From NCBI GenBank assembly GCA_009782175.1, contig WRKR01000011.1:1-64000 (forward strand): 64,000 nucleotides of DNA, in the 5' to 3' direction. The notes beneath the pieces were generated by a model. The model saw nothing but the letters and a program-made list of their open reading frames with translations, ran no database searches and was not told where the DNA came from. The position numbers were made by a program, and so were the translations under genes. Positions 11,062 to 55,861 of the stretch are shown here, one piece after another. Within the stretch, counting starts at the first letter, position 1; every line of letters starts with the position of its first letter. The DNA is from Cystobacterineae bacterium. Its GTDB lineage: Bacteria > Myxococcota > Myxococcia > Myxococcales > Myxococcaceae.

Positions 11062-11204
11062 CAGACCGGTTTCAATTTGGCATGAGGTCGAGGCGGGCGA
11101 GGCCTAAGTCCCGAGGGGAAGGCGCGATGGGAGTGCACTTAAGTGCATGACCTGAGCGAAACCGGAGCCCAACGAAGAGATCATGTCAAAGTGAAAGCGG
11201 TCTA
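11062..11204 (-). repeat. Dispersed palindromic repeat, copy A
   Basis: Read on the minus strand, it runs from CTAGACCGC to CCGGTCTGG, with imperfect inverted ends of about 23 bp (20 of 23 matching against copy C's right end) and an internal perfect palindrome TGCACTTAAGTGCA (11134-11147). It lies between the 3' ends of the RHH gene and lon. Two related copies lie at 14904 and 55468. No ORF inside. It looks like a MITE or an intergenic palindromic unit. Confidence 0.8.
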
Positions 11205-11207
11205 GAG

Positions 11208-13631
11208 TTAGGCGGAGGCCGTGGGCGGTAGCGGCTTGGGAGGCCAGGACTCGAGGGCGAGCTCGAGCACTTCATCCATGGTGCTGACGAAGAGGAATTC
11301 CACTTCTTTTTTGGCTTGCTCGGGCACATCCACCATGTCTTTGCGGCAGCGCTCGGGGAGGATAATCCGTTTAATTCCAGCTCTATGGGCTGCGAGGACT
11401 TTTTCTTTAATGCCTCCGACGGGGAGCACGAGTCCGCGCAAGGTGGCCTCGCCCGTCATGGCCGTATCAGAGCGGGCGCGTACATGTGTCATGAGGGAGG
11501 TCAGCGCAGTGAGAATGGTAACCCCTGCGGAGGGTCCGTCTTTGGGGATGGCGCCGGCGGGAAAGTGGAGGTGGATGTCTGTTTTCTCCATAAAGTCTGA
11601 AGGAATGCCCAGCTGTTCTGCCTTGGAGCGCAAATAAGAGAGCGCTGCTTGGGCGGACTCTTTCATGACTTCTCCGAGTTGCCCTGTCAAAGTCAGCCCC
11701 CCCTTGCCCGCCATTTTTGTACACTCAATGAAGAGCAAGTCTCCCCCGGCTGTTGTCCAAGCCAAGCCTGTGGCGACCCCTGTCCTTTCGGTGCGCTCTG
11801 CAACTTCGGAATAATAGCGTTCGGGCCCCAAAATTTCGGGAACGCGCTGTGCGTCGATGGTTTGTTTGTCGGTTTTTCCGGACGCAAAATCCACGGCAAC
11901 TGCGCGGCACAAATCCGCAATGCGCCGCTCCAGGCTGCGCACGCCCGCCTCGCGCGTATAGGAGGTCAGCAGCACATGAAGGGCTTTTTCTTCAATGGTG
12001 AGGTGGTTTTCTTCCAGGCCATGCTCTTTGAGTTGTTTGGGAATGAGGTGTTTGACGGCGATGGCCTCTTTCTCATCAAAAGTATAGCCGGACAACTCAA
12101 TAATTTCCATGCGGTCGCGCAAAGGGGAGGGGACGGTGTCCAGCTGGTTGGCTGTGGCAATAAACATGACTTTGGACAAGTCATAGGCCACATCCAAATA
12201 GTGGTCTGCAAAACTGTTGTTTTGCTCCGGATCCAAAACCTCCAGCAATGCGGAGGAGGGATCTCCGCGAAAATCCGCTCCCAATTTATCAATCTCATCC
12301 AGCATCATCACCGGGTTGACGGTGCCTGCTTTTTTCATGTTTTGAATGAAGCGCCCTGGGAGGGCGCCCACATAGGTGCGTCGGTGGCCGCGGATTTCGG
12401 CTTCATCGCGCACACCACCCAGGGAGAGGCGCACAAATTTTCTTCCAATGGCGCGTGCGACGGATTGCCCCAGGGAGGTTTTGCCTACGCCGGGGGGGCC
12501 CACCAGGCAGAGGATGGGGCCGCGCATGTCATTTTTGAGTTTGCGCACCGCGAGGTATTCCAAAATGCGTTTTTTCACCTTTTGGATGCCGTGGTGGTCT
12601 GCATCCAAGGTTTGGCGTGCGTTTTCTATGTCTAAATTGTCTTCGCTTTTTTTGCTCCAGGGGAGGTCCGCAATCCAATCCAAATAGGTACGCGAAACAG
12701 TATATTCACTGGAGGCTGTGGGAATAGAGCGCAGGCGGTTGAGCTCCTTGGTGGCGACTTTTTCCACTTCTGGGGGGAGGGCAGCATTTTTGAGGCGCTC
12801 GTCCAGCTCGTCAATTTCTTCTTCTTCTTCGCCGAGCTCCCCCAATTCTTCTTTGATGGCTTTCAACTGTTGGCGCAAATAATATTCGCGCTGTGTTTTG
12901 GACATTTCGCCTTTGACGGCGGAGTCAATTTTGTTGGAAAGTTTGAGAATTTCGCGTTTGCGGTTGAGCACCTCGAGGACGAGGTTCATCCGCGCTTTAA
13001 GCTCAACGGTTTCCAGGACGGCCTGTTTTTCTTCTAAGGGCACATCAATGTTGGCGGCAATGAGGTCGGCCAGGTGGCCTGGGTGGTTAATGCTTTCTAC
13101 CAACTCGCTTGCCGCGGAGGGCAACTCAGGCATCAACTCAATCACTTCGCGCGCAAGTTTTTTGAGGTTAATGCCCAAGGCTTCAATTTCGAGGTTTTCT
13201 ATGGGTGTTTTGTCTTCCAAAGGCTCTATGCGTGCTTTGAGGTAGGGTGTTTCCTGGACCAAGTCCACCAAGCGGAAGCGCGCCAAGCCCTGGACGACGA
13301 GAGAATAGTTTTCTTCTCCCATTTTAAGGAGTTTGACAATTTTAGCCACGGTCCCCGTCATATGGAGATCTGTGGATTTTGGATCTTCCTCCTCTGCTTT
13401 TTTCTGGGTGACGACACCGATAAATTGCTCATCGCGAACGGCGTCTTTAATGAGGGCGATGGTTTTGGGGCGCCCCACAGCAAGCGGGAGGACTCCGCCG
13501 GGGAAGAAGACAGAATTTCTTAAGGGCAAAATAGGAAGGACTTGAGGAATGTCTTCTTTTTGGATGAGATGGGAAGCACCTTGAGGAGAGGGCAAATCGG
13601 TTCTGCTGCTTTTTTTTGAGTCATCCGCCAT
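11208..13631 (-). CDS. lon: ATP-dependent protease Lon
   Basis: Cytoplasmic AAA+ serine protease degrading misfolded and regulatory proteins. The 807-aa chain has the Lon N-terminal domain (PILPLRNSVFFPGGVLPLAV), a coiled-coil linker, Walker A GPPGVGKTSLGQS near 377, Walker B MLDEIDKL, and the protease domain with catalytic Ser in PKDGPSAG near 700 and Lys in GGIKEKVLAAHRAG near 742. Spacing of about 43 between them matches known Lon proteins. ATG 13631 (MADDSKK) is preferred over 13670, as the extra 13 residues precede the usual start. Monocistronic; a palindromic repeat follows it. Confidence 0.97.
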   Translation of the reverse strand: MADDSKKSSRTDLPSPQGASHLIQKEDIPQVLPILPLRNSVFFPGGVLPLAVGRPKTIALIKDAVRDEQFIGVVTQKKAEEEDPKSTDLHMTGTVAKIVKLLKMGEENYSLVVQGLARFRLVDLVQETPYLKARIEPLEDKTPIENLEIEALGINLKKLAREVIELMPELPSAASELVESINHPGHLADLIAANIDVPLEEKQAVLETVELKARMNLVLEVLNRKREILKLSNKIDSAVKGEMSKTQREYYLRQQLKAIKEELGELGEEEEEIDELDERLKNAALPPEVEKVATKELNRLRSIPTASSEYTVSRTYLDWIADLPWSKKSEDNLDIENARQTLDADHHGIQKVKKRILEYLAVRKLKNDMRGPILCLVGPPGVGKTSLGQSVARAIGRKFVRLSLGGVRDEAEIRGHRRTYVGALPGRFIQNMKKAGTVNPVMMLDEIDKLGADFRGDPSSALLEVLDPEQNNSFADHYLDVAYDLSKVMFIATANQLDTVPSPLRDRMEIIELSGYTFDEKEAIAVKHLIPKQLKEHGLEENHLTIEEKALHVLLTSYTREAGVRSLERRIADLCRAVAVDFASGKTDKQTIDAQRVPEILGPERYYSEVAERTERTGVATGLAWTTAGGDLLFIECTKMAGKGGLTLTGQLGEVMKESAQAALSYLRSKAEQLGIPSDFMEKTDIHLHFPAGAIPKDGPSAGVTILTALTSLMTHVRARSDTAMTGEATLRGLVLPVGGIKEKVLAAHRAGIKRIILPERCRKDMVDVPEQAKKEVEFLFVSTMDEVLELALESWPPKPLPPTASA

Positions 13632-14249
13632 GAGATGGTTTTCCAGGTTTCTATGTGAACAATAGAGCATAACGCAATTGACAACCTAGCCGTTCCAAAC
13701 GTTTCAGCAAGCTGGCTTCCCTTTTTTTCGAGAAAAGAATTCAGTTTAGATAAACAAAATTCAAATGCTCAACAACAAGATGCACGCATACTCAACAGAG
13801 ACCAAACTTATTTTTGTAGATCTTTTTGAGCGCTGAATACAACAGGAGATTTGGGGCAGTCCACAGGAGACGCTTTTTGAAGCGGTGCGCCTGGCTTTGT
13901 TGGATGAGAATGTGGGCAAAAAACCCTTATATAGCGGTGGGGATAAGGGGTTTTGAGGAAAAGGCGCGCACTTGCTGGTGCTGATGCGCTTTGGTGAAGG
14001 GGATTGCAGTGAGCGCTTGGACTTGCTTAACTCTCTGTGGCTTGGGTTGGATTTGAGGATGGCACTCCCCAAAGTTGCGTTTTGCAAAACGGAGCGATGG
14101 AGTTTTGGGAAGAAGAGGAAGGCGTACAACTGGCCCGTGCCTATTTTGCATTGGAGGTGTCCTCGTTGGGCTTCGGAGAAGAAAATAGAAATAATACGGT
14201 TATGTATACATTAGCCATGAAGGGTTGTTTGCCCATGGGTGGGGCCTAA
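13632..14249. other. Intergenic region with possible decayed coding sequence
   Basis: About 620 bp between the divergent lon and HAD genes. Protein-like stretches occur in different plus-strand frames (around 13839-13955 and 14037-14249), each broken by stops, and nothing aligns to a family that I know. This may be a pseudogene with several frameshifts, or chance. The lon promoter should also be within it, but no strong -35/-10 pair stands out. Confidence 0.35.
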
Positions 14250-14906
14250 GTGAGCGTTGCTTTTTTCGATCTGGACAGGACGTTAATTTCCCAAAATTCA
14301 GCACTTTTGTGGATTCAGCAGCAATGGAAGGCGGGGGTGTTAAAACGCACAAGCAGCATAAAAACGCTGGGGTGGTTTGTGCGCTATAACCTGGGGTGGG
14401 GAAACTCAGCGGCCCCCTTGGTACAGGCCATGGAGGGTTTTGCGGGGGTTTCTCATGGGGAAATTTTGGAGAAAACCAAAAAATTTTATGAGGAGGAGGT
14501 ACGTCGTTTTTATCGCCCGGGTGCACTCAAAGAGCTTGAAGAGCAGCAGCGAGAGGGGCGAGAGTGTATATTGTTAACCTCTTCGACTCAATATTTGGGA
14601 GAACGGGTGGCCGCGGATTTGGGTTTGGATGATTGTTTGGCCAATGTGCTCGAAGTTGACGCCCACGGAAAGCTGACGGGGCGCATAGAAGGCATTGTCT
14701 GTTATGGGCACGGCAAGTTGCTGAAGGCAGAAGCCAAACTTGCCCAGTTAAATATAGCCCTCTCCGAGTGCAGTTTTTATACGGACTCCTATGCGGATTT
14801 GCCTGTGATGGAGGCCATAGGAAACCCCGTCGCCGTCAACGCGGATTTGCGGCTTAGGCGGTGGGCCAAAAAGCATGGCCACCCCATTGTGGACTGGGGC
14901 CGCTAG
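14250..14906 (+). CDS. HAD-superfamily phosphatase, SerB-like (HAD-IB)
   Basis: A 218-aa hydrolase with the nucleophile motif FDLDRTL (Asp7 or so, near the N-terminus), motif II LLTSS, and motif III/IV YTDSYADLPVMEAIGNPVAVN. This pattern is that of the HAD-IB family, which includes phosphoserine phosphatase and small phosphomonoesterases of lipid or serine metabolism; the substrate is not determined. It starts with GTG. Its TAG stop forms the first bases of a palindromic repeat copy. It converges with the FAD oxidoreductase gene. Confidence 0.85.
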   Translation: MSVAFFDLDRTLISQNSALLWIQQQWKAGVLKRTSSIKTLGWFVRYNLGWGNSAAPLVQAMEGFAGVSHGEILEKTKKFYEEEVRRFYRPGALKELEEQQREGRECILLTSSTQYLGERVAADLGLDDCLANVLEVDAHGKLTGRIEGIVCYGHGKLLKAEAKLAQLNIALSECSFYTDSYADLPVMEAIGNPVAVNADLRLRRWAKKHGHPIVDWGR

Positions 14907-15008
14907 ACCGCTTCCACTTTGACATGATCTCTTCGTGAGACGAGCTAAAGCTCGTCTCAATTGAAACCGGTCTGGAGCATCCAATCAGTTCTAAGTAAAA
15001 GCGGTCTA
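14904..15008 (+). repeat. Dispersed palindromic repeat, copy B (shortened variant)
   Basis: Shares the left end TAGACCGCTTCCACTTTGAC and the right part AATTGAAACCGGTCTGG with copies A and C, then the trailing ATCAGTTCTAAGTAAAA also found after copy C. The central TTAAG palindrome is absent and replaced by a 9-bp perfect hairpin (14937-14958). It ends GCGGTCTA, an inverse of its own beginning. It fills the gap between two convergent genes and may act as a bidirectional terminator. Confidence 0.8.
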
Positions 15009-15022
15009 TTCAACGTGTTTAT

Positions 15023-16462
15023 TTAATGCCGTGGGGGTTTTTTGAGGAGTTGTTGCTCAATGGCTTTGCTGGTTTTGAAGGCCAGAAGCAATTCCCCTTC
15101 GAGCCCCAGGCCTGGCAGTTGTTGTCGGTTGGCGATGTGCAGGGGTTTGCATTTGGACTCCATAAGCTCTCCGCAAAAGCCCAAGCCGCCGTCCACTTCA
15201 GCGTTGTTGGGCATGAGGGGGAGTTTGGCCTCATAGAGGCGCTCATGTGGAGCATTCAACTGGGGAGAGGAGGCGAGGCGCACATGTTGGCGAGCGAAGG
15301 GCAGCAGCTCTTCCAGGCACTGTGCCATGGATTTCAGTTGTGCTTCCAGTTGGGCTTTGAAAGTTTTTTCTTCTTTGGGGTGAAACCATGAAGAAGCCGT
15401 CAAAATACGCAAAGGCTCGGGCATGCCGCGCTCCAAAGGTGCAGCTGGAATGTTTTGAAGCCACAAGGAGGGCAGGAGGACTTGCTCTTTGAGGGCATAG
15501 GGGAGGGCTTCCTGAGGGAGGAGCCAATGGAGGCTGATGCGTTGAGGCGAGGGGTGCGAAGGTGGGGGGGCGGAAGCATATTTGAGGACTTTGGGGTTTT
15601 CAAGGCAGCGCGCGAAGGCTTCAATGTCTGCAGCGCACAAGGCCGTGCGCACGCGATAAACCGTAGAGTCCCCGCGCAGCTGCAGAGAGCAGCCTTTGTT
15701 GTCAAAGGCCAGTTGTGTCAGCTGAGAAGGAAAAACCACGTCCACCCCCAGCTGTTGCATGCGTTTAAGCAACCACTCCCCGAAGCCCTGTCGTCCTTGG
15801 TGGAAGCCATAAAAGCCCAGCAACACACCTCCTGCAAAGTGTTGCAGTGCATAAGGCGAGGGCTCTATGCCCAGGCTGAGGCTTGCCATCAGCTGAAGTG
15901 AAGGCCAGGCCGCTGTGGGGAGCCAGTGTAGGGGAGGAGACTCGAAGAGGCGTGCCTGGCGGCGCAGGGACCAGCCTTCCAGCAGGCCTTGAGGGGGCAA
16001 GTTGGGGAGGGTTTTCAGAAAGGCTTGGCTTTGGGTTTGGAATTCCAAGAGGTTTTTGAGTTGTGTTTGGTTTTCTTTCCCGAAGAGTTTTTGCCACTCG
16101 TTTTCATGCTCTTCAAGAGCAGGGGGAAAATCCAAGCGTTGTTTGGGGACAACCCATTGGGTAGCCAGGGGAATAGCTGTACGTTGAAAGTCCGTCGTCA
16201 GCTGCATTTCCTCAAGGAAGGTTGAGAGCAAGGCAGAATGACGTGGGTTGGGCAGGAGAATGGCCTCATAGGGGAAGTGCTGCCCCTGGTGCTCATAGGG
16301 GGGGGTTGTTTCTACAGCCAAAACTTTATAGCCCTTGCGCGCCACGAGGGCTGCGCTGGCCAAGCCTGCCAGGTGGCTGCCGATGACAACCAGATCATAA
16401 AAATGCCGCGAAGGGGTGCTGACAAAGCCCGAGCCCATGTTATGTGCAGGGCCTCCTTTCAT
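15023..16462 (-). CDS. FAD-dependent oxidoreductase (phytoene desaturase-like fold)
   Basis: A 479-aa protein with an N-terminal dinucleotide-binding segment YDLVVIGSHLAGLASAALVA followed by an acidic residue after the second strand (AVET). This is a variant of GxGxxG in which the second Gly is replaced (GSHLAG). The overall layout is like NAD(P)/FAD amine-oxidase or carotenoid-desaturase families, but the substrate is unknown. ATG 16462 overlaps the purN stop (ATGA); ATG 16438, with AAAGGAGG 13 nt upstream, is an alternative. It is the last gene of the purM-purN operon, although no purine role is evident. Confidence 0.75.
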   Translation of the reverse strand: MKGGPAHNMGSGFVSTPSRHFYDLVVIGSHLAGLASAALVARKGYKVLAVETTPPYEHQGQHFPYEAILLPNPRHSALLSTFLEEMQLTTDFQRTAIPLATQWVVPKQRLDFPPALEEHENEWQKLFGKENQTQLKNLLEFQTQSQAFLKTLPNLPPQGLLEGWSLRRQARLFESPPLHWLPTAAWPSLQLMASLSLGIEPSPYALQHFAGGVLLGFYGFHQGRQGFGEWLLKRMQQLGVDVVFPSQLTQLAFDNKGCSLQLRGDSTVYRVRTALCAADIEAFARCLENPKVLKYASAPPPSHPSPQRISLHWLLPQEALPYALKEQVLLPSLWLQNIPAAPLERGMPEPLRILTASSWFHPKEEKTFKAQLEAQLKSMAQCLEELLPFARQHVRLASSPQLNAPHERLYEAKLPLMPNNAEVDGGLGFCGELMESKCKPLHIANRQQLPGLGLEGELLLAFKTSKAIEQQLLKKPPRH

Positions 16463-17073
16463 GGTGAGCAACCGTTGAGAAAGAAGAGAGGGCCTTTGTT
16501 GTGCACATGCCCTTGGGCAAAAAGGCGCGCCACGTGGGGATAGAGTTGGTGCTCTGCGCTTTGGATGCGAGAGGTGAGGCTGGAAACATTGTCATTCTCC
16601 AAAACGGGCACGGCGGCCTGGGCGAGAATGGGGCCTGTATCTATGCCTTCATCAACCAAGTGGATGGTGCAGCCCGTCATTTTGACACCTGCTTTGAGGG
16701 CTTGCTCGGGGGCGTGTTTCCCAGGGAAAGAGGGCAACAAAGAGGGGTGTGTATTGAGGACACGTTGGGGATAGGCACTCAAAAAGCGGTGCGTCAAAAG
16801 GCGCATAAAGCCGGCCAAGCAGACGAAATCCGTCTCATATTCCTGCAGCAGCTGCACAAGCAATTTTTCATGGTTTTGCCTGTCCTCTTTGCCTTCATGG
16901 GGAACAAAAAAGGTGGGGATGCCCGCTTCTCTTCCACGGGTGAGGGCATGGGCAGAAGCCACGTTGGAAACCACCAGGCTTATTTCAGCAGGGGAGGAAG
17001 GCACATTGAGTTGGTTAATGAGTGCCTGCAGGTTGCTGCCATTACCAGAAGCCAATACTGCAATGCGTTTCAT
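16459..17073 (-). CDS. purN: Phosphoribosylglycinamide formyltransferase
   Basis: Adds a formyl group from 10-formyltetrahydrofolate to GAR in de novo purine synthesis. The 204-aa protein has the N-terminal ASGNGSNLQALI phosphate loop, the catalytic block VLNTHPSLLPSFPG (Asn-His), and HLVDEGIDTGPILAQ with the catalytic Asp. Length matches the family. Its start overlaps the purM stop by 4 nt, and its stop overlaps the FAD gene start, giving a tightly coupled three-gene operon. Confidence 0.95.
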   Translation of the reverse strand: MKRIAVLASGNGSNLQALINQLNVPSSPAEISLVVSNVASAHALTRGREAGIPTFFVPHEGKEDRQNHEKLLVQLLQEYETDFVCLAGFMRLLTHRFLSAYPQRVLNTHPSLLPSFPGKHAPEQALKAGVKMTGCTIHLVDEGIDTGPILAQAAVPVLENDNVSSLTSRIQSAEHQLYPHVARLFAQGHVHNKGPLFFLNGCSP

Positions 17074-18122
17074 TGAAGCACCTGGGCTGTGGGTGGGGAA
17101 GAAGCGGCGTCCGCTTCAATGTTACCAACGTGCCAAGCCAAAAGCCCCTGCTCTTTGAAAAAATTTAAAACGAAAGAGAGTGCCTGCGGGTTGATGACCA
17201 GGCAATAGCCCAAGCCCATGTTGAAAGTGTTATACATTTCTTCTCTCAAAACCTTTCCCCATTGGGCCAAGAGGCCAAAGAGGGGGCTGGGTTGCCAATT
17301 TTTTTCATAAAGGACAGCTTTAGTGCCTGCAGGCAAACAACGCGGGAGGTTGCCGGGTATACCTCCTCCTGTAATATGTGCCATGCCTTTGGGTTTTGCA
17401 TGGCTTTGGGCATGCTCTATGAGAGCCAAAATCTCCTTGACATATATTTTTGTAGGCTCCAGCAAAGCCTCTCCCAGGGTTTTGCCCAGCTCAGGAAGGT
17501 GCAGCTCCAGTGGGAGCCCTTCATCCTGGATAATTTTGCGAGCCAAAGCATAGCCGTTGGAATGCAAACCTGAAGAAGCCAAGCCTACAATGGCATCCCC
17601 AGGCTGAATATGGCGGCCGTCAACCATTTCTGATTTTTCGACAATACCCACGCAAAAGCCTGCAAGCTCATAATCTCCCGGAGAATAAAACCCAGGAAGT
17701 TCAGCAGTTTCCCCGCCAAGCAGGCAACAATCCGCCTGGAGACAGCCTTCGACAATGCCAGAAATGACGCGTTTTGCGACTGAGAGTTCCAAGCGGGAGG
17801 TGGCAAAATAATCGAGGAAAAAAAGTGGACGAGCCCCTGAAGTCAGCAGATCGTTAGCGGACATGGCCACCAAGTCAATACCAACAGTTTCATGGCGTTG
17901 CATCGCGAAAGCCAATTTGAGTTTGGTCCCCACGCCATCTGTGCCAGAAACGAGGACGGGGTTTTGATAGAGGCCTTTAGGGAGTTCAAAAAGCCCGCCA
18001 AAGCCACCGACGCCTGCAAGGAGTCCCGGTTTTTTTGTTTTTGCGGCCAAGGGTTTAATAAGCTCGACAAATTCGTCTTGGGTGGCGATGTTGACTCCGG
18101 CGTTTTGATAGGTGCTATTCAC
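17070..18122 (-). CDS. purM: Phosphoribosylformylglycinamidine cyclo-ligase (AIR synthetase)
   Basis: Closes the imidazole ring: FGAM plus ATP gives AIR, the step two after PurN in purine synthesis. The 350-aa protein shows GVGGFGGLFELP, the ATP/substrate block SGTDGVGTKLKLAF, GIDLVAMSANDLLTSGA, GGETAELPGFY and HITGGGIPGNLPR, all typical of PurM. First gene of the operon. It is divergent from the Crp-like regulator with about 115 bp between them, where promoters for both should lie. Confidence 0.96.
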   Translation of the reverse strand: MNSTYQNAGVNIATQDEFVELIKPLAAKTKKPGLLAGVGGFGGLFELPKGLYQNPVLVSGTDGVGTKLKLAFAMQRHETVGIDLVAMSANDLLTSGARPLFFLDYFATSRLELSVAKRVISGIVEGCLQADCCLLGGETAELPGFYSPGDYELAGFCVGIVEKSEMVDGRHIQPGDAIVGLASSGLHSNGYALARKIIQDEGLPLELHLPELGKTLGEALLEPTKIYVKEILALIEHAQSHAKPKGMAHITGGGIPGNLPRCLPAGTKAVLYEKNWQPSPLFGLLAQWGKVLREEMYNTFNMGLGYCLVINPQALSFVLNFFKEQGLLAWHVGNIEADAASSPPTAQVLQ

Positions 18123-18237
18123 GAAAAGCTCCTGGTGTTAGAATGAAGGGAGTGAAGAGAGGAGGGTGGCATATGGCCTTAGGGTGGCAATTTCAAGCAG
18201 GGGCGCCCCCATGGTGGGGCGGGAACACGGGTGTTTT

Positions 18238-18888
18238 ATGAAAGCTGAAGACACAATGTTTCAGCGGATTGGAAAAGAAGTCCCAGCAGGAACAGTATTG
18301 TTTCGCGAAGGTGAAACAGGCAAGGAAATGTTTGTCATCCAAGCCGGGCAGGTTTCAATTTCCAAGCGTATTCGAGACATAGAGAAAATTTTGGCTGTTT
18401 TAGGCCCGGGTGATTTTTTTGGGGAGATGGCCCTTATTTCCAACAAAGTGCGCAATGCTTCTGCTGTTGCAGACAAAGACTCTCGCCTGTTGGTGATCGA
18501 TCTACGCACTTTTGAAATGATGATTCGCTCGAGCACGGAAATTGCGGTTCGGGTGATCCGCAAGTTGGCAGAGCGCCTTGCGGATGCTGACGCGCAGATA
18601 GAGTCTCTGCTGTTGGCGGATCCGCCCAGCCGCATTGTGCACTGCATGTTGCAGGCCTGTCAGTTGAGGGGGGTTCCGGTAGCTGGGGGGATAGAGGTAC
18701 CCCTTGCGCTGAAGGAGCTTCCAGGTCAGCTGGGTGTAGGAGAGGCGGCCTTAGGCTATTGGGTATACCGCTTAGAGTGTATGGGGCTGATTATTGTGGG
18801 CCCGGACAAGCTGATTGTTCCTGAACCTGCGCGTTTGGGTGAATTTCTGCAATATTTGGATATGCGTTGGAAATATGGGGAATTTTAG
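18238..18888 (+). CDS. Crp/Fnr-type cyclic-nucleotide-binding regulator
   Basis: A cAMP-receptor-like protein with an N-terminal cNMP-binding jelly roll (GTVLFREGETGKEMFVIQAGQVSISKRI, then GPGDFFGEMALISNKVRNASAVA). The FGEMAL...RNASA block resembles the phosphate cassette. The C-terminal part is helical with a probable winged helix (LKELPGQLGVGEAALGYWVYRLECMGLI). The start is uncertain: ATG 18238 fits relatives; ATG 18211 (CAGGGG upstream) and GTG 18166 are longer options. It heads a long series of plus-strand genes. Ligand and target unknown. Confidence 0.8.
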   Translation: MKAEDTMFQRIGKEVPAGTVLFREGETGKEMFVIQAGQVSISKRIRDIEKILAVLGPGDFFGEMALISNKVRNASAVADKDSRLLVIDLRTFEMMIRSSTEIAVRVIRKLAERLADADAQIESLLLADPPSRIVHCMLQACQLRGVPVAGGIEVPLALKELPGQLGVGEAALGYWVYRLECMGLIIVGPDKLIVPEPARLGEFLQYLDMRWKYGEF

Positions 18889-19123
18889 TTGAATTCCCTG
18901 AAGTTTAGAGGGGGCTTGAGCTTGCTGCTCAAGGCAAATAAGAGGGCAGGAGCTCTCTAAACCCCCATGGACGCTTTGCCATAGAGAAATTTGCGTATTG
19001 TTATGAAAAACTCCAAAAAATGTGTAAGACTCATTCTGTGCTTGGGGGAATGTAAGGATGGTAGCTGACAAGTGGTTTTGAGTAGGTTTGGGCGGAGCAT
19101 GTGTATTTGAGGAAGAGGAATTC

Positions 19124-47374: not shown

Positions 47375-48211
47375 TTATTCTGCGCTGGTTTTTTCGAGAA
47401 AGCTCTGTTCCGGGGGAGGGAAGGGCGAGGTGGGCTCAGCATTTTCCTGAGGGTTTTCTTGTAGTTTTTCTTGTAGTTTTTCCAGAGGTTCAGCCGCAGG
47501 TTTGAGAGCGTTGGGGAAAAGTGGTGGTGAAGCGAAGTCCTGAGCATGGGGGTATATGAGGGCATTTTGAATGGCGAGGCTCAGTTGGGAGAGGGCGGGT
47601 TCCAGAATATGGAGGGCGTGGGAGGCGGCCTGGCTATGCTTGTTGGGCATCTGCGTGGCCAGTTTGAGTTGAGCCAGGGTTTCCTGCAGGAACAGCTCGG
47701 CTTCGGACAGGCGCGTTTTGGCTATATAGAAGGAGCCTTCGGCGCGCAAAGCCTTGAGGGCGTTTTGTTGCTCAGGGGCAAGGCCCTTCAAAAGCTCTGC
47801 GCGGCGCAAATGGGCGATGCCGTGTTTTTGGTTGAGAGGATCTTCAGAAAGAATCCGTGGTTTTGCAAGCGCTTCCAGAATGGGAAACAGCGCCCTGTCC
47901 AACTCCCCGGTATCATTATACCTTGAAGTTTCAATGTTATCGGGCCGAAAACCCTCCAGCGGCAAAGGCGCATAAGCCTCATCTTCCGTATTCCAAGGAG
48001 CGGAACCGAAGGGAAGAAGTTTTCCTTTATGAATAAACAGTGTATCGTTAACGACATGCAGGGTGAAAGTTCGTTCATTCTCCCTGGAGAGCAAATAAAG
48101 TATCGCAGCTGTGAGGCCAGCGATGACGAGAGTGATCATCAGCCTGACGAAATATCGGACAAGCTTTTTTCCAAAGGATAGAGAAGTGGTAGTGGATGTT
48201 GGATTTCTCAT
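47375..48211 (-). CDS. Single-pass membrane protein of unknown function
   Basis: A 278-aa protein with one transmembrane segment at about residues 22-41 (FVRLMITLVIAGLTAAILYLL) and a periplasmic or cytoplasmic helical part. The C-terminal tail holds a duplicated 12-bp unit giving EKLQEKLQEN and is rich in Pro/Glu. No family recognised. Divergent from the methyltransferase/coiled-coil gene (77 bp apart), with which it could share regulation. Confidence 0.7.
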   Translation of the reverse strand: MRNPTSTTTSLSFGKKLVRYFVRLMITLVIAGLTAAILYLLSRENERTFTLHVVNDTLFIHKGKLLPFGSAPWNTEDEAYAPLPLEGFRPDNIETSRYNDTGELDRALFPILEALAKPRILSEDPLNQKHGIAHLRRAELLKGLAPEQQNALKALRAEGSFYIAKTRLSEAELFLQETLAQLKLATQMPNKHSQAASHALHILEPALSQLSLAIQNALIYPHAQDFASPPLFPNALKPAAEPLEKLQEKLQENPQENAEPTSPFPPPEQSFLEKTSAE

Positions 48212-48288
48212 GTGCTTTTCAAAATGGAATATAGAGTTATATAGAAAGTTTTTGGGGAGAGAGACTGAAATAAGCTTAGGGGGTTTTT

Positions 48289-50433
48289 GTGTCTATAACC
48301 TTTAAGAGATGGGGTCAAAGCGAACTGCTCCCACGGTACATTTTTGCTGAATCTATCATTACGCACCAGCGTGTTCTTGAAATTGGTGCAGTGGCTTCGA
48401 CGGGGGGGATGTCGGCATATTTTTTGTTGCTAAAGGGTGCGCGCACTGTTGTTGCCTGCGACAATGTTTCAGAGGCGATGCAGCAGGCGCAAGCGAGGTT
48501 TGGTGCACCCAACCTCATGTTTCGTCCCATGGTTTTTGAAGGGTTGAGTCCGGCCAGTTTTGATCTGATAGCGATTACGGATTTGGCTCCTTTCATCAAA
48601 GCACCGGCCTTGTTTGAGCGGCTTTTGCGTTTGTTAGCGCCTCAAGGTTATGTGTTGGGTGCTTTGCGGAACACGGGGGGGCTGGCGCTTTCCCAGGTGA
48701 TGGAGATGGATCCAGAAGAGGCACCTCCTTCTTATGGGCAATTGCTGGATGTTTTGAGGCCGCGGTTTGTCTCCATTCAGATGGCAACCCAAGCCCCCGT
48801 ATTAGGCTATCAGCTGGCGTTTGAAGAAGGAGACGGGCTGCAAATAGAGGGTTCTTTGGCCGGTGCTGGAGAGGCTGCCTATTATGTCGTCATAGCGGGA
48901 AAAGAGCCTCGCAAAAGTGTGGATCCGCTTTGGGTACAATTGCCGCCGGAGCCTTTGTTTCTGAACCGCTCCAAGCTTGAAGAGGCTGTTTTGCGTGCGC
49001 GCGATTGGCAGACGCGTTTTGAGTCACAAAAAGAGGCATTTGAGAAAGCGAAGACGCAGCTTGGAGCCTTAGAGCAGGAAAACCGGCACCAGGTGAAACA
49101 ATTGAATGAGGCGCAAGAAATAGCGACGCGCCTTCAAATGCAAGCCGAGGTGCCTCTGGTCGATCCTTCGGCAGATCTGCAACTGGTTGAGAAAGTTTCT
49201 CAACTCAGCACGGATTTAGCTGCTGCAGAAGGACGTGCAAATGAAGCTGAAGCGCGTGTTTCTGCGATGTCCATGGAAATACAGCGCCATGTGCAGGCAC
49301 TCAGAGAAGCGACAACGGATGTGTTGGCCGCCAAAGAGAGTGCTCGCATTGAACGCACGAAACGAGAAGAAGCAGAAGCAAAAGCCAAAGAGGCGGTCGA
49401 TCGCTCCTCTCAAGTGCAGGAGCAAGCCGCCCCGCCTCAACCTCTTGCGGCTGACCACATGGAGTTTGAAAAAACAAAGCAAGAGCTTGAGTCACAGAAA
49501 TTGACCATTGAAGCTTTGCGTCGTGAGTTGGAGCTGTTGCGGGAAGAGCACTTGCGTGCAGTGGATAAACAAAAGGAGGCTTTGTCCGAGTTGGCCGACA
49601 AAGAGTCCTTGCTGGTGAAGTTGCAAGAGCAGGAGCGCGCAGTGCACCTGTTGCAGTCCGATTTATGCGCCATGCGAGAAGAGCGGGATGCCTTGGTTTT
49701 TCAATTGCGGATGCATTCCCCACCGCAAGAGGAAGGGGCTTCAGAAAAGGCCTTAAAAGAGGCTGCAGAAGAAAGCATACAGAAAGGCATGGCTCCAGAA
49801 GCAAGCGCTGAAGAGCTGCAAAAACTCAACACGCAGATGAGAGAGCTGGAGAAGAAGCTCAGCCACAAAGCCGACGAAGTGGATGCGATGCGTGAAGACT
49901 TAGCGCTAAGGAGCCACTCTGTTGAGCGCTCCAAAAACCGAATTAGAGAGCTTGAAAGCATGTTGGCCAACGCTCAAACGCAAAGCAAAGAAGACAATGC
50001 TTTGCTGGGAGCAGAATATGACAAACTCAAGCAGGACAATGTGGCTTTGCGCTCCATGTTGGAGGCCTTGCGTGCGAAGGTTGAAACGCAGAAGGCCGAA
50101 GAGACAAGCGCCGGCATGCATACGGCAGGGACCATGTTGATTGCACTACGCAAGCGTTATGCAGAGCAGGAACACGTTTTAACCCAGACGCGAAAAACCT
50201 TGGAACGTACCGAAGGCGAGCTTGAAATTGTGCACAAACAACTCAAGGAACTTTTGAAAGTGCGCGAGGGAGCCAACGAGGTGAAGCCGGCGAAAGCTAA
50301 AATTGCAGGCGCTGCTGGACGTGCTGAACAGGCTAGACATGCTGAACATGAAGGGGATTCTGCCCATACTTCTGACGTTATAGAGCCCGAGCTTATAGAA
50401 ATAGACGAATTTGAGCTGGAAGAAGAAAAATAA
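48289..50433 (+). CDS. Methyltransferase-like domain fused to a long coiled coil
   Basis: A 714-aa protein. Residues 1-200 look like a Rossmann-fold methyltransferase: VLEIGAVASTGGMSAYFLLLKGARTVVACDNVSEAM (motif I and acidic strand-2 end), FDLIAITDLAPF, and LLAPQGYVLGAL. Motif I (EIGAVASTG) departs from the usual ExGxGxG, so activity is uncertain. Residues 230-660 form a nearly unbroken heptad coiled coil, with Glu-rich tail. GTG 48289 has AGGGGG 5 nt upstream. Coiled-coil fusions of this sort serve as cell-pole or cytoskeletal scaffolds in Myxococcota; no specific role is established here. Confidence 0.7.
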   Translation: MSITFKRWGQSELLPRYIFAESIITHQRVLEIGAVASTGGMSAYFLLLKGARTVVACDNVSEAMQQAQARFGAPNLMFRPMVFEGLSPASFDLIAITDLAPFIKAPALFERLLRLLAPQGYVLGALRNTGGLALSQVMEMDPEEAPPSYGQLLDVLRPRFVSIQMATQAPVLGYQLAFEEGDGLQIEGSLAGAGEAAYYVVIAGKEPRKSVDPLWVQLPPEPLFLNRSKLEEAVLRARDWQTRFESQKEAFEKAKTQLGALEQENRHQVKQLNEAQEIATRLQMQAEVPLVDPSADLQLVEKVSQLSTDLAAAEGRANEAEARVSAMSMEIQRHVQALREATTDVLAAKESARIERTKREEAEAKAKEAVDRSSQVQEQAAPPQPLAADHMEFEKTKQELESQKLTIEALRRELELLREEHLRAVDKQKEALSELADKESLLVKLQEQERAVHLLQSDLCAMREERDALVFQLRMHSPPQEEGASEKALKEAAEESIQKGMAPEASAEELQKLNTQMRELEKKLSHKADEVDAMREDLALRSHSVERSKNRIRELESMLANAQTQSKEDNALLGAEYDKLKQDNVALRSMLEALRAKVETQKAEETSAGMHTAGTMLIALRKRYAEQEHVLTQTRKTLERTEGELEIVHKQLKELLKVREGANEVKPAKAKIAGAAGRAEQARHAEHEGDSAHTSDVIEPELIEIDEFELEEEK

Positions 50434-50555
50434 TATTTTTATAAAAAGGCTTTTATAAAAAGGCTTTTTTTAGGGACTGTCTGCTGAAGGACTGTCTGCT
50501 GAATGGGCTGAATGGGCAACGCGTTTTCAACGCAAGCTGATGGCCAGCCCATAAG

Positions 50556-50586
50556 TTTTGAAGGCCGGCACAACCGGCCAGCAAAA
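50556..50586. other. GC stem-loop with flanking TTTTG/CAAAA
   Basis: GGCCGG (50563-50568) pairs with CCGGCC (50574-50579) around CACAA, and TTTTG pairs with CAAAA outside. It resembles the other intergenic hairpins of this chromosome and may stop transcription in both directions. Confidence 0.4.
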
Positions 50587-50643
50587 CCAGAAGTGTGTCC
50601 ATGCCTTCAATGACATAGCCTCAACAAAGAAGGAGCTTTTGGC

Positions 50644-50677
50644 AGCCCACCCTGGGCTTTGGTGGGCTTTGCTTTTG
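50644..50677 (+). terminator. Rho-independent terminator candidate
   Basis: AGCCCACC (50644-50651) pairs perfectly with GGTGGGCT (50661-50668) around a 9-nt loop, followed by TTGCTTTTG. It lies about 210 bp after the coiled-coil gene stop and 100 bp before the next gene. Confidence 0.55.
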
Positions 50678-50778
50678 TGGATGGGGTGTGCCCCAAGGCC
50701 CCTTCCTCAACACTTTTCCAAGCATAGACTTTGTGGCGAAGTTACGAACAAAGCAAAAGGGCCATTTGGAGGAAGAGG

Positions 50779-53490
50779 ATGAAAGCTCGAAAGCTGCTTG
50801 TTTTTGGAATACTTTTGCCCATAAACATGGCTTGCAACACAGGGGGAATTTTTATAGATGCATGCCGCGTAGGCGACAACAGCTGCCCTGCAGCACACCA
50901 TTGCGTGGGCTTTTGGGGCAACCACCTAGGCTCCGCAGGGAGTTGCCAACCGGAGTTGCCGGAATACCGGTGCCTTGCTGATGATGCAGAATGCCATGAC
51001 ACCCCCGAGTGCCATGTGGGTGACAACAGCTGCCCCGCCGGACAACGCTGCGCAGGCCTTGGCGACAACAAACAAGACGGTGCCCCGGGCACTTGCCAGG
51101 CAACGCCCAATGACACTCCCGAGTGCCATGTGGGCGACAACACATGCGCAGAGGGCTATGTGTGTGAAGGCGCAGGGGCTGCACCTCCAGGAGACGCCGG
51201 CAGCTGCGAGGACATGGCCGAGTGCCGCGTGGGCAGCACCACCAACACCTGCGCTGAAGAGGACAGCTATGCTTGTATAGGCATTGACAGCGCAGAGGAG
51301 GGCGCCCCCGGCACTTGCGAGGACATAGCCGAATGCCGTGTGGGGGAGAGCAACTGCCCGACGGGCCAAAGTTGCATAGGCATACTCCACAACGGGGGTG
51401 GCGCCGCTGGTGTGTGCAGGGATGAAACCCTGGGCGAGGGTTGCGAGGAGGACGCCCATTGCCTCCCTGGGCAGCTTTGTGAGGCCGACGCTGGCGGCAC
51501 AAGCCGGTGTACCCATGGAGAGCGCGACGAAAATGGCCATGTGGTGGCGACACTCAGCAACTTCCAACTCCGCATAGGAGGCCAGCTGATAGTGCCCTTT
51601 CGCCCCCACGGCGCCACACAAGACAACCCAAATGCAGGTTGGGTAGGGGCAGGGGAGGCGGAAATGCGTATATTGGCCAGGGGGCCAGGCGCCAACATGG
51701 GTTTAGAGGTATATATACCCGGTGGACAACTCAACCCCACCGCATGCAGGGCCACCACCATTTGTACAAACCATTGTGAGTGGAGTTGCACCCTGTCCGC
51801 AGGCTGGGCCGGCAGTGGCCCCACAACAGCCATACAAGTGGGTATGGGCCCTATAACTCCACAATTATGGAGTTATAGGGTGAGCACTGCCCCAGGCCTC
51901 CACTTTAATGTGCCCCCCACAGCTATGCTGGGAGAAACCCTCACCCTATGCGTGAGCGCAACCACCACGCAGGCCCCTGTGCAGAGCCTCAATATATGGG
52001 AGGTGGAGTTGGAGGACAGCCCTTTGCCGCCTGCCCCTCCCACCCGCTTGCCCCTGCATTGGAGAGAAACAGTTATAAGCAACAGACAAAAATGCTGGAG
52101 TGCACACCTCCCCTTGAGTTTGGGCTGGCAAGGTACAACCAGGCTGCGGGTTTGGGCGGAGGCCATGGACAGTGCCGGCAACCTCAGCAGCGCACGCTAT
52201 GCGGAGCCCTTAGAGTTAATACGTGTTTCCTGCGCCACAACATTCCCCGGCACGGTGAGTGCGCCTTTAACCTTTATTAATGGCCGCTTGGTTTTTGCCG
52301 TGGACACCCGCCTCCACGTGATGGATGCTGACACTTGCTCCCTGGTGGGCACGCTCAACACAGGCTCCATAAGAGGCCCCATGGTGGCACTGGGGGATGG
52401 GCGTTTGGCGGTGGCCAGCACAGGGCGCGGGGGGCCTCCAGGGCGGCAGACGGCGCGCCTCCTCATGATAAATACGTCAGCACAACCTGTTTTTGCACAA
52501 AATGCTGCAGAAGAGTGTAGCGTTGGAATGGCCGGCACGGATGCTATGGCGCTTTTTGACAAGGGGCTTTCCCTGCTGAGTTTAAGCCCTGTGCGTTATG
52601 CCTCCCCTGCCAACACGGGAAGCAACTCCGTACTGGTGGCCTATGCGCCGGGGGAGGAGGCAAGCCGTTGCATAGGTACCCATGCCATGGGTGCCCCCAT
52701 TGCGCTTGCCTTGGCACAGGCCGACAATGCAGAGGTGCTGGTTGCTTATGGGAATGCGCAGGGAAACACGATCTCTGCGTTGAGGTTTAATGCGCAGAAC
52801 GCCCAATGGGAGAGCGGCAGTTGGGTGGGCAACAATGTTTCCTCAGGAAACCTTTTGGGCATTGCACTGAGCAACCATGGAAGCCTCTGGCTTTCCTCCA
52901 GCACAACCCCTCCTTTTTCCGGGCTGCAATTGTGGCGGCGCTGGGGGGCAGTGCCCACCAACCACTCTTCAGGCAGTTACCGCTTTTTCCCTGCCGCCGT
53001 TGACAGCCAGGGCCGGGCCTATGTTGTGGATTACCGCGCTGTTTCCTCAGGCTCCGCCTATGAGTTAAACCTCTTGCACGCCGACATAGGCGGGCAGATT
53101 GATTTTAGCACAGTGCTGCCCTCAGGCATGGTGAATGACATTGTCGGCAGCCCCATATTGGGGCAACCCCCTTCAGGGGATGAGGCCGACGCTGAGCTAT
53201 ATGTTGTGGGCAGCAACGGCAAAATATTTGCTTTCCGCGCCAATGACGTGGAATGGCTGTGGACAGTTGAGTTGGGCTTTAACATTGCGACCACCGCGCA
53301 GCCCGTGCTGGTGCCCCACGCCGACGGCGGCGGCACTTTATGGCTCGTGGGTGCACAAGGCCAAGTGCGCGGCCTCCGCGTAGCCAGCAACGGGTTAAAC
53401 CGCTCAGCACCCTGGCCCAAAGCCTTCAGGGACAATTGCAACACCAGCAGCAGGTTGATAACGCCAACCAACATGCCGGCATGTTTTTAA
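50779..53490 (+). CDS. Large Cys-rich lipoprotein with beta-propeller region
   Basis: A 903-aa protein starting at ATG 50779 with GGAGGAAGAGG directly upstream. Signal peptide MKARKLLVFGILLPINMAC (likely lipidated Cys19). Residues about 28-265 hold six or seven Cys-rich repeats of the type ECHVGDNSCPAGQRCAG, each with a C...C...C pattern that should form disulphides. A beta-sandwich-like segment (about 270-500) and a propeller-like C-terminus follow, ending APWPKAFRDNCNTSS as in the lipoprotein at 27346. Such proteins are frequent in predatory and gliding Myxococcota lineages; a role in surface adhesion is inference only. Confidence 0.75.
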   Translation: MKARKLLVFGILLPINMACNTGGIFIDACRVGDNSCPAAHHCVGFWGNHLGSAGSCQPELPEYRCLADDAECHDTPECHVGDNSCPAGQRCAGLGDNKQDGAPGTCQATPNDTPECHVGDNTCAEGYVCEGAGAAPPGDAGSCEDMAECRVGSTTNTCAEEDSYACIGIDSAEEGAPGTCEDIAECRVGESNCPTGQSCIGILHNGGGAAGVCRDETLGEGCEEDAHCLPGQLCEADAGGTSRCTHGERDENGHVVATLSNFQLRIGGQLIVPFRPHGATQDNPNAGWVGAGEAEMRILARGPGANMGLEVYIPGGQLNPTACRATTICTNHCEWSCTLSAGWAGSGPTTAIQVGMGPITPQLWSYRVSTAPGLHFNVPPTAMLGETLTLCVSATTTQAPVQSLNIWEVELEDSPLPPAPPTRLPLHWRETVISNRQKCWSAHLPLSLGWQGTTRLRVWAEAMDSAGNLSSARYAEPLELIRVSCATTFPGTVSAPLTFINGRLVFAVDTRLHVMDADTCSLVGTLNTGSIRGPMVALGDGRLAVASTGRGGPPGRQTARLLMINTSAQPVFAQNAAEECSVGMAGTDAMALFDKGLSLLSLSPVRYASPANTGSNSVLVAYAPGEEASRCIGTHAMGAPIALALAQADNAEVLVAYGNAQGNTISALRFNAQNAQWESGSWVGNNVSSGNLLGIALSNHGSLWLSSSTTPPFSGLQLWRRWGAVPTNHSSGSYRFFPAAVDSQGRAYVVDYRAVSSGSAYELNLLHADIGGQIDFSTVLPSGMVNDIVGSPILGQPPSGDEADAELYVVGSNGKIFAFRANDVEWLWTVELGFNIATTAQPVLVPHADGGGTLWLVGAQGQVRGLRVASNGLNRSAPWPKAFRDNCNTSSRLITPTNMPACF

Positions 53491-53650
53491 GGAGCGTCCC
53501 CCTTCCACAGGCTGTTGGCTTTTGCATTTTTGCATTTTTGTTTTTTATGAGCCCTTTCATGCTAAACCGGTTTCCAGTTGGATTGAGCTTAGAGGTCGGT
53601 TTCCATGGGACAGGAGGCAAGAGGCAGACGAGGCTTTGGCGAGGAACATT

Positions 53651-54292
53651 ATGTATAGGTTTTCTCTCTTCTCTTTTGCCTCTTTGTTGGCGGCTTGTTT
53701 TTTGCCGGCCTGTCCTTCAGGCTGTGAGAAAAACCCTCCAACAGCTTTTGCCCCACCGGAGTTGCCCAAGGCGTTGCCCCCCCCTCTCCCGCCAGTTTCC
53801 CCTGAGGCAGCAGAAGCTGAAGAGGAAGCCATGGGGCCCTTGCTCAGAGAGCCCAGCATGGAGGAGTTTCAGGCTTTGGGCATTGTTTTGTCCCCCAAAC
53901 ACGAGGAAATAACCAAGGCATTCCACGAGGCCCTCAACACCCTGGGGCAGAGGGAGTTGAAGGCATTGGCCATAGAGTTGGAGCGGCTTTCCACAGAAAA
54001 CCCCTGGCATTTTTTGGCAGAGTCGGCCTCTTTTGCGGCCATTGCCAGCTGGCAGGCCCTGGGGGAGTGCGAGAGCATACTCAAGGCAGGGTTGAGCTTT
54101 GTCCAAGCTTGGCCTCAGGGGGCCTATGCGCCTGAGGTGTGGTTATACATGGCTTTTTGCCAGCAGCAGGTGGGGCAAAGAGCAGAATTTGAAGAGACTT
54201 TGAGGTTTATAGCCGAGCACTACCCCCACATGCCGGCAGGCCCCAAGGCACGCATAGAGTTGGGTTTGCCGGATAGTGTTAACAGGCCCTAA
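53651..54292 (+). CDS. Lipoprotein with helical C-terminal domain
   Basis: A 213-aa protein with lipobox LAAC16 after a short signal; ATG 53651 has GAGGA 7 nt upstream, better than the start at 53522. A Pro/Glu-rich linker (about 26-60) leads to a helical domain of about 150 residues with TPR-like spacing (ECESILKAGLSFVQAWPQGAYAPEVWLYMAFCQQQVGQRAEFEETLRFI). No specific family recognised. Lies between the Cys-rich lipoprotein and the LysM protein, same strand. Confidence 0.75.
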   Translation: MYRFSLFSFASLLAACFLPACPSGCEKNPPTAFAPPELPKALPPPLPPVSPEAAEAEEEAMGPLLREPSMEEFQALGIVLSPKHEEITKAFHEALNTLGQRELKALAIELERLSTENPWHFLAESASFAAIASWQALGECESILKAGLSFVQAWPQGAYAPEVWLYMAFCQQQVGQRAEFEETLRFIAEHYPHMPAGPKARIELGLPDSVNRP

Positions 54293-54420
54293 AGCTTGCC
54301 TCATACATACGCGCGGCTGAAGTGCCAAACGCAACACAAAGTGGGCACTCTCTGGGGGGCAGAGGCGTGGCCCTTTGAAAAAACCTGGGGTTTAAGAGGC
54401 CAGGGCATTAATGAATTGGC

Positions 54421-55461
54421 ATGAAGCATTGCTTGGGTGCCTTTTTTATTGGAATACTGTTGAGTTTTTCTGTGCAGGCGCAAAACACTTTTTCTTCCCA
54501 GGAGGGCGGCGTACAAACTCTGCCCGAAGGGGGCATACATAAGGTGGCAGAAGGAGACACACTGTGGAGCTTGGCAGAAACCTATTTGGGGGACTCGGCA
54601 GAGTGGCTTGGCTTGTGGGCGGCCAATGAGCAAATTGAAAACCCGAATTGGATTTATCCAGGTGAGGTGGTTTATTTAAAACCCCCTCTGCCAGCGGACG
54701 AAAGCCCTGTGGTGGAGCCCCCCAACACCCCACAGCCCAACAGGCTTATAGAGAGGCCCGCAGATTTGCCCTCCCTCATTGCCGTTGATACGCTGATAAC
54801 CCCAGAGCCCATTGAAGGGTGGGGCAGCATTGAAAGCTCCATCTCCCAGTCCGAAATGCTCTCCCCCTTGGATGACATACACATAAAACTCAAACAGGAG
54901 AGCAGGGCACAAGCAGGTGAAACCTTTTTGATTTTTAGAAAGCAAGGAAAGCTTAAACACCCCAAAACGGGTGAGTTTTTGGGCCATGTCAGCACTGTCG
55001 TCGGGGCAGCGCGCCTCTATTCCCGAGAGGGACAGCATGCCATGGCAAAAATTATAAGGGCCAACGCGGAGGTTTTGCGTGGGGACATGTTGGGGCCCAT
55101 GGGGGAAAGCAATATACGTCCAGTTTATATGCGGAAAAATGAGAAGAATATGGAGGGCTGGGTGGTGGCGACGGAGCCTTTGGCTTCTACCATGGCCGGC
55201 ATACAATACCTCATTTTTGTAGACAAGGGTGCAGCGGACGGCGTTGTGCCCGGCAACCGTTTCCACATTATGCGCCAACAAGACGGCCTAAGCCTCCAAA
55301 CTGTGCTGAGCCCCGCAACAACAGACGAGGAGCTTCCCAAACAAGCCATTGGCTTTTGCACCATTATAGACGTTAAATCCAAGGTGAGCTGCTGCCTGCT
55401 GATACATGCCTCCCGTGAAATTGTCCCCGGTGACAAAGTGGAAATGCGCAACGAGAGTTGA
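54421..55461 (+). CDS. Secreted LysM-domain protein
   Basis: A 346-aa protein with signal peptide (GAFFIGILLSFSVQAQ) and an N-terminal LysM domain (HKVAEGDTLWSLAETYLGDSAEWLGLWAAN ... NWIYPGEVVYL), which binds peptidoglycan. A Pro-rich linker and a beta-rich C-terminal domain with VDKGAADGVVPGNRFHIMRQ, a FlgT/CsgG-like 'DxGxxxGV..G' pattern, follow. This layout is common in delta-group envelope proteins; function is not known. Followed 7 bp later by palindromic repeat copy C. Confidence 0.8.
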   Translation: MKHCLGAFFIGILLSFSVQAQNTFSSQEGGVQTLPEGGIHKVAEGDTLWSLAETYLGDSAEWLGLWAANEQIENPNWIYPGEVVYLKPPLPADESPVVEPPNTPQPNRLIERPADLPSLIAVDTLITPEPIEGWGSIESSISQSEMLSPLDDIHIKLKQESRAQAGETFLIFRKQGKLKHPKTGEFLGHVSTVVGAARLYSREGQHAMAKIIRANAEVLRGDMLGPMGESNIRPVYMRKNEKNMEGWVVATEPLASTMAGIQYLIFVDKGAADGVVPGNRFHIMRQQDGLSLQTVLSPATTDEELPKQAIGFCTIIDVKSKVSCCLLIHASREIVPGDKVEMRNES

Positions 55462-55861
55462 GCTGGGCTAGACCGCTTCCACTTTGACATGATCTCTTCG
55501 TTGGACTCGTTTTTGTTCGGGTCATGCACTTAAGTGCACTCCCCTCACAAAAGCCTCGCCCGCCTCGACCTCATGTCAAATTGAAACCGGTCTGGAGAAT
55601 CAAATCAGTTCTAAGTAAAACCAGGCTAGCTGCACGGCGGGCTTTAAACCCTGTTTTTTTAGGCCACGCCGGCTGGGGGCCGGCGAAGCGCGCTTGGGCA
55701 AGTGGCTCCCGCCTACAAAAAAACCCGCCCCCAAAGGGGGAAAAAAGGTTTTAAAAACTCCTTCATAGAAGTGAAAAAAAACCTTCGGGGCTGGGGCATT
55801 GAAAAAGAAAAGTGGCAATTTTTTGCCCATTGTGCTTCTGCATGGCAACCGAAAGGAGCAT
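55462..55861. other. Intergenic region: repeat copy C and GC hairpins
   Basis: 400 bp between the LysM gene and hisA. After the repeat (55468-55620) come two GC hairpins: CGCCGGC/GCCGGCG (55667-55685) and CCCCC/GGGGG (55728-55740). Read on the minus strand the second is followed by CGGGTTTTTTT and looks like a terminator, though no minus gene is near. Frames here carry no credible protein. Confidence 0.5.
55468..55620 (+). repeat. Dispersed palindromic repeat, copy C
   Basis: The most complete copy: left end CTAGACCGCTTCCACTTTGA, internal palindrome TGCACTTAAGTGCA (55525-55538), right end ATGTCAAATTGAAACCGGTC up to 55594, then the tail ATCAGTTCTAAGTAAAA shared with copy B. The two ends are inverted repeats with three mismatches in about 23 bp. 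No ORF. Confidence 0.8.

Follow-up and report, generated by a model that had tools for sequence, protein, structure and literature searches.

Is a palindromic repeat that recurs directly behind stop codons a mobile element, or a signal for the transcripts that run into it? The question is raised by three copies of such a repeat in a 64,000-nucleotide stretch of DNA (the window), contig 11 of the 65-contig, 2.70-Mb draft genome (G000) of a small-genomed relative of Myxococcus, whose name, 'Cystobacterineae bacterium', presumably stems from termite-gut MAGs. The original prediction saw in these copies a MITE-type or intergenic palindromic unit that acts as a terminator or RNA processing signal and is present in dozens to hundreds of copies per genome. 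The three copies do exist, with adjusted limits, and can be oriented by two constant ends, X (CTAGACCGCTTYCACTTTGACATGATCTCTTCGT) and Y (CAATTGAAACCGGTCTGG), both of which start with CTAG, Y having an outer arm that ends in GGTCTAG. Copy A (about 11048 to 11205, minus strand; 158 bp including module M3, see below) has its X end at 11205, 2 nt from the stop of lon (11208-13670, minus strand; Lon protease domains), and an inner Y end at 11061, 11 nt past a TAA, its outer Y end being eroded; it matches copy C at 81% (blast), and its second neighbour, convergent with lon, is a ribbon-helix-helix gene (10726-11049, plus strand). Copy B (14903-15009, plus strand; 107 bp) is a collapsed form that consists of an X end, a GAGACGAGCTAAAGCTCGTCTC hairpin and a Y end and is missing the core. 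The CTAG of its X end (14903-14906, plus strand) contains, at 14904-14906, the TAG stop of a HAD-family gene (14250-14906, plus strand), towards which a gene with a Pyr_redox_2 match below cut-off converges (15023-16471, minus strand). Copy C (55468-55629, plus strand; 162 bp) has the basic architecture without optional modules and starts 6 nt past a TGA between two tandem genes, a LysM gene upstream (54421-55461, plus strand) and a histidine-biosynthesis (His_biosynth) gene downstream (55799-56557, plus strand). The predicted 3' position, with two copies between convergent genes (A and B), thus holds on our own gene calls, which come from a codon-usage script trained on 41 long window ORFs and not from a standard gene finder, and the stop at copy B even lies inside the repeat. 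In the same window, at 362-446 (plus strand), there is an Rfam match to sRNA-Xcc1 (RF02221; 75.9 bits, gathering score 53).

As expected of a MITE, the element is short and its ends pair in folds as terminal inverted repeats, for which we found 25 nt with 20 matching (80%) in copy B where about 23 bp with 20 matching had been claimed. The palindrome TGCACTTAAGTGCA, said to be common to two copies, is indeed present in the cores of A (11134-11147) and C (55525-55538), no strand being assigned to it, while copy B lacks it and has another hairpin in its middle; a perfect 11-bp inverted repeat of copy B spans 14936-14959 (plus strand). Allowing up to 3 mismatches, a search for the core 22-mer CCACTTTGACATGATCTCTTCG gave three hits, where shuffles predict 0.00.

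A whole-genome search showed the family to be real, with further copies in the 2.7-Mb genome and in the predicted range. A 167-base query gave 58 blast matches, antisense ones and pieces of single copies included, with two copies 99% identical to copy C, and the exact end motif CTAGACCGSTTYNA is dispersed in 70 places in G000, in 26 in G002 and in 7 in G001 (the latter two being sister species of the same genus), while all reversed-pattern controls gave 0. With one mismatch allowed, a shorter end pattern matched 304 times as opposed to 85 times in its control. At 9 of the first 30 loci (L009, L015, L016, L019, L021, L023, L024, L026, L030) a contig edge lies inside the repeat, so the draft breaks in these repeats, missed copies are likely and the true copy number is probably higher. 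Among 60 relatives searched, the family was matched in three (own genome included), all of one genus (G000, G001, G002), and 57 gave no family match; genome size is 2.1-2.7 Mb in the three and 3.9-13.2 Mb in other family members searched. An exact 22-mer search of the GTDB contig collection, which may lack records of the window itself and others very close to it, led to three contigs, all from the MAG 'Cystobacterineae bacterium isolate Emb289P3bin65' (WQYA01). A looser end pattern run on 195 Myxococcota genomes (controls 0) matched five, namely the three above, G163 from the same class and G194 from another family. G163 has two inward-facing ends about 160 bp apart (L178), one of which (TTAG) holds an ORF's TAG stop, and G194 has two inward CTAG ends 135 bp apart at one locus (L179) and a single end in the other locus read. 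A phage or plasmid origin found no backing among phage records (50,697) and plasmid records (72,556), none of which matched, and the exact X end is absent from viral contigs. We regard the family as real, genus-restricted, MITE-like and, with two copies 99% identical to copy C, apparently recently active.

Between X and Y lies a quasi-palindrome that can take up four hairpin modules, all of them optional and each with its fixed position; element length ranges from 84 to 407 bp, with at least 11 architectures. Read from X to Y, the basic form (162-163 bp) is made up of segments A (X end), B, C and D (Y end), the last with an inner inverted repeat, CCAGACCGG, and an outer one about 34 bp further outward that ends in GGTCTAG; a shorter form, of 84 bp, lacks the outer Y arm. 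In a 383-bp reference copy on contig C17, the modules occupy positions 35-116 (M1), 159-200 (M2), about 206-226 (M3) and 251-332 (M4). Our module comparison covers 41 oriented elements (36 from G000, 4 from G002, 1 from G001), and the 36, sorted by eye from the comparison with the C17 copy, carry no module (16), M2 (4), M3 (2), M1+M3 (2), M1+M3+M4 (2), M1 (1), M2+M4 (1), all four (1), M1+extended M2+M3 (1) or M1+extended M2+M4 (1), with copy B as the one collapsed form and four that are irregular; two pairs kept in the counts, C6:28480 with 407 bp and C10:49916 with 198 bp, may be fused or chance pairings. Among module hairpins we distinguish 17 sequences, built on roughly five stems that are unrelated to one another, and almost every one is paired throughout its 13-16 bp; recombination between copies, or template switching, probably shuffles the modules.

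How these elements come to lie where they do can be read from orthologous loci. From 36 eligible element ends we obtained 11 flank pieces representing 10 sites, 7 of which were matched in G001 or G002, and with the window copies this allowed nine loci (A, B, C3, C36, C5, C9, C34, C4, C20) to be compared over at least one flank each; window copy C stayed outside, its flanks matching different contigs in G001 with no spanning locus. At none of the nine is a recognisable copy of the same element present in a sister species in the same place and orientation. Instead, at five of them (B, C3 and C36 in G002, C34 in G001, C20 in G001 and G002) the sister has a single CTAG where G000 has the element between two CTAGs, each case being exact on at least one side; opposite that side, B and C3 have additional sequence in G000, and for C20 the comparison is limited to the right flank. 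A CTAG is also near C4 in G002, a locus that matched ambiguously and was left out of the count. C5 is a misfit with a pure CTAG rule (CTAA in the sister species, CTAG in G000), one complete element (C15:18324) has TTAG at both ends, and several others combine CTAG at one end with CTAA or CTAT at the other. Of 58 TAG-bearing X ends, 54 read exactly CTAG, and insertion at CTAG is shown, in agreement with the CTAG/YTAR target of IS5/IS427-derived MITEs. An element's own CTAG is indistinguishable from a duplicated one, and with one CTAG at empty sites and two around the element, the data would be compatible with a duplication of CTAG, of TA or of nothing. In the window, the target is rare (21 CTAGs observed, 64 expected).

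Orthologous sites also carry other elements. At window A and at C34, other element families occupy the orthologous stop in G002; window B corresponds in G001 to an eroded element of opposite orientation; and at C3 and C36 there are small element-like ends in G001, so that these 3' gaps are hit repeatedly. The family at the stop orthologous to copy A is a different long-hairpin one of about 185 bp with ends CTAGACCGATTCAAAGTTGAAATGAG, seen in G002 at L084 (C3, ~101.7-101.9 kb) and at L176/L180 (C1:2064-2247).

Our data further tie the target to the stop codon itself. In G000, 17 of 35 complete elements have a gene's TAG stop inside a terminal CTAG, compared with 10 of 50 among those non-coding CTAGs that lie apart from elements (p=0.009; CTAGs away from elements fall into 40 intergenic, 30 coding and 10 at stops). 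The overlap is lopsided, 13 elements having it at X only, one at Y only and three at both (13 to 1, sign test p=0.0018). Counted by ends on our own gene calls, 25 of 58 TAG-bearing X ends hold the TAG stop of the preceding gene as opposed to 5 of 38 Y ends (Fisher p=0.0014, using the 55 X ends with a gene call), and the difference persists for exact-CTAG ends only (X 23/51, Y 5/30, p=0.015). The sister species add five pairs to this, among them three X-only (G002) and one Y-only (G001). As for gene context, the 35 elements lie in 18 convergent gaps, in tandem gaps with X (10) or Y (4) behind the gene (p=0.18) and in 3 divergent gaps, and their convergent share exceeds that among neighbouring gene pairs of the same stretches, element-bearing gaps included (38/165, p=0.0015). 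Purging of intragenic insertions together with stop regeneration explains much of this placement and leaves the X-first bias unaccounted for. Nor does an extended target consensus provide a source for the bias, the only extension being a C or G two bases before CTAG, which is found at both ends (44/54 X, 25/30 Y). A second in-frame stop follows the element-end TAG, as in the window at 14904-14927: TGA comes 18 bases after TAG in the X end and in the end types of G002, G163 and G194, and the common Y end has a TAG 12 bases after the first. Since these ends look related, this may be a single coincidence.

To our minds, the family is probably a MITE-like, non-autonomous mobile one that inserts at CTAG, is moved in trans by a transposase of the IS5/IS427 type and restores the stop codon that it invades. 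On such insertion, CTAG (or the TA within it) would be duplicated by the DDE transposase, acting in trans and now lost or undetected, and insertion into C-TAG would be tolerated inasmuch as the second CTAG restores the stop, on either strand because CTAG is palindromic; the X-first orientation may then stem from an asymmetric target or from selection acting on the strand that is transcribed. Support for this comes from the end motifs (70, 26 and 7 against 0 in controls), the single-CTAG loci and the lack of shared copies at all nine loci, from the stop overlap and the convergent excess, from a resident IS5 element bounded by CTAG and from the published precedent of MITEPsy1 (PMC3189936). The MITE half of the original prediction has thus stood, and the modular interior, exact stop-codon overlap, orientation bias and one-genus restriction go beyond it. 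Weakening the MITE-like reading are the failure to find, in the families searched, a transposase with the family's ends, an X-first bias (13 to 1) unexpected for a palindromic target, the two indistinguishable origins of CTAG and the CTAA of locus C5 in the sisters.

The resident element, an IS5-family one (NF033580) on contig C7 of G000 (L175:1093-1930), has two reading frames and a CTAG on both sides, the left one holding the TAG stop of a weakly called ORF. Its target rule is that of the repeat family, whereas its ends, AGCGTGTCGTCAATAAAT, differ, and we therefore reject it as the direct parent; the family's ends, in turn, are unlike those of this resident element, where likeness would be expected of an IS5/IS427-derived MITE. 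Adjoining this element is another CTAGAGCGGTTTCC start, possibly of a small element. Our transposase search covered DDE_3, Y1_Tnp and DDE_Tnp_1, and no autonomous partner with the same ends was found among the matches to these. DDE_Tnp_1 gave one match in G000, with ends unlike the family's, and none in G001 or G002; in G163 and G194 nothing was over cut-off, with one weak match in G194. IS630 favours the TA within CTAG, and we reject mobilisation by it on finding no DDE_3 over cut-off in G000, G001 or G002, a G001 fragment staying just below (28.0 bits, cut-off 28.6).

Could the repeats, formerly mobile, have been domesticated as 3'-UTR RNA that selection keeps and whose fold stabilises, processes or Rho-dependently ends transcripts running from X to Y? 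We think this unlikely, albeit the stop at the X end 13 times and at the Y end once is what it would predict, and so are changes that keep the helix. Five copies fold with a stability above that of shuffles (z -5.3, -12.3, -6.2, -2.8, -4.9), and in a 21-sequence alignment of basic forms pairing holds in 98.1% of cells, with two-sided changes in 27 cells (10.3 in shuffles, 0-5 in slid versions) and a covariation score of 0.097 (shuffles 0.051). Moreover, our own script found both sides of helix 4 fully matched in 25 of 27 readable elements (out of 41; the other two differ in the last pair), with alleles such as TTTTTGT/ACAAAA, TTTTTGC/GCAAAA and GGTTTCGC/GCGAAAT. Judged from the alignments, matched changes keep the helix, with which pure decay of a selfish element is a misfit. 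Yet palindrome-templated copying could give the same helix pattern without selection, the number of pairs with two-sided change (5) was reached by 43 of 500 shuffles and further pair types (8) stay below the shuffle mean (9.8). Speaking against a domesticated RNA as well, no sister species shares an element at the nine loci, in 40 of 41 elements the strand read from X to Y folds less stably than its complement (mostly an effect of composition, by shuffled controls for five copies) and wobble intermediates are present on both strands; neither wobble counts nor the stability of sense versus antisense pointed clearly to a selected strand. Identity with a known RNA family is rejected, Rfam being negative for the 383-bp and 162-bp copies at E up to 1.

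A route distinct from DDE transposition, and quite improbable in our view, is REP-like single-strand insertion 3' of CTAG by a tyrosine (HUH) enzyme, in which one CTAG would be the target's and the other the element's without any duplication. Single-CTAG sites fit this as well as they fit duplication, and a foldback, a tetranucleotide tag, an orientation bias and supplied TAG stops recall the GTAG REPs, tagged palindromes that, in the part of PMC3733652 drawn on here, lie mostly downstream of genes and often supply a TAG stop with their termini. Those REPs and REPINs, however, are 20-40 bp long, tagged at a single end and associated with RAYT genes (same part of PMC3733652), whereas the present elements have CTAG inverted repeats at both ends and their three genomes (G000, G001, G002) no Y1_Tnp match, a search positive in 5 of 14 control genomes; RAYT mobilisation is rejected accordingly. 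The TTAG at both ends of C15:18324 also is as expected from duplication and argues against the single-strand route.

That the repeats are bidirectional intrinsic terminators amplified for that function is very improbable, since the 3' and convergent placement and the stability of the hairpins (five copies, z -2.8 to -12.3) which might recommend it leave the CTAG rule unaccounted for, and a terminator-like hairpin with T-tract lies inside 0 of 23 gene-proximal elements (a strict test, also 0/121 for control genes) and within about 110 bases after 2 of 23. The terminator half of the original prediction, as a general role, falls with this; copy C is upstream of a separate terminator-like site (55636-55655, plus strand) just past the element; the region holds five sites of this type, where shuffles give 2.3.

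Among known systems, MITEPsy1 of Pseudomonas syringae is the closest by target rule, an analogy resting on passages of PMC3189936: it is short (100 nt), has inverted ends and a 4-nt CTAG (or YTAA) duplication, is thought to derive from the IS5-family ISPsy2, to which its ends link it, and no coding sequence is reported for it. In contrast to the family here, it is simple, has few copies and other ends, and those passages do not describe optional modules or a stop-codon bias. By build, and as an analogy of build only, the pneumococcal BOX is the closest, with constant outer parts, optional inner modules, stem-loops, an excess between convergent genes and a stop codon supplied in 36 of 58 overlapping CDSs in Streptococcus pneumoniae (excerpted text of PMC3049150); it differs in having one repeated inner module (boxB) instead of four different ones at fixed places, and a CTAG rule is not described in that excerpt. 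RUP, which the same excerpt presents as a small high-copy element thought to be moved in trans (PMC3049150), and IS630-type MITEs share these traits and the TA inside CTAG with the family and are set apart by the DDE_3 search of the three genomes (none over cut-off). Stop-codon supply by repeats is hence already known. In the portions of the literature drawn on here, no repeat was found that combines CTAG on both ends with four independent modules and a single orientation towards stops, and the terms 'stop codon' and 'modular' are absent from a review (PMC10969869). A bolder idea, which we hold to be rather doubtful, is that CTAG-tagged modular palindromes rank with the GTAG and CGTC repeats as a third superfamily that bears a tag, extending to G163 and G194, whose members would be one-orientation C-TAG specialists written into the stop, read as modular 3'-UTR RNA and moved by an enzyme outside those searched.

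For the organism, our findings would mean that a mobile repeat can spread without breaking genes, the flanking CTAGs rebuilding the stop codon that was invaded, and 3' gaps orthologous between sister species (window A and B; C34) have been struck by different element families. With four freely combined hairpin modules and matched stems, the family may serve as a test case for telling selection from palindrome-templated copying and, more broadly, as a system for studying how 3' UTRs are remodelled by repeats when a genome is reduced.
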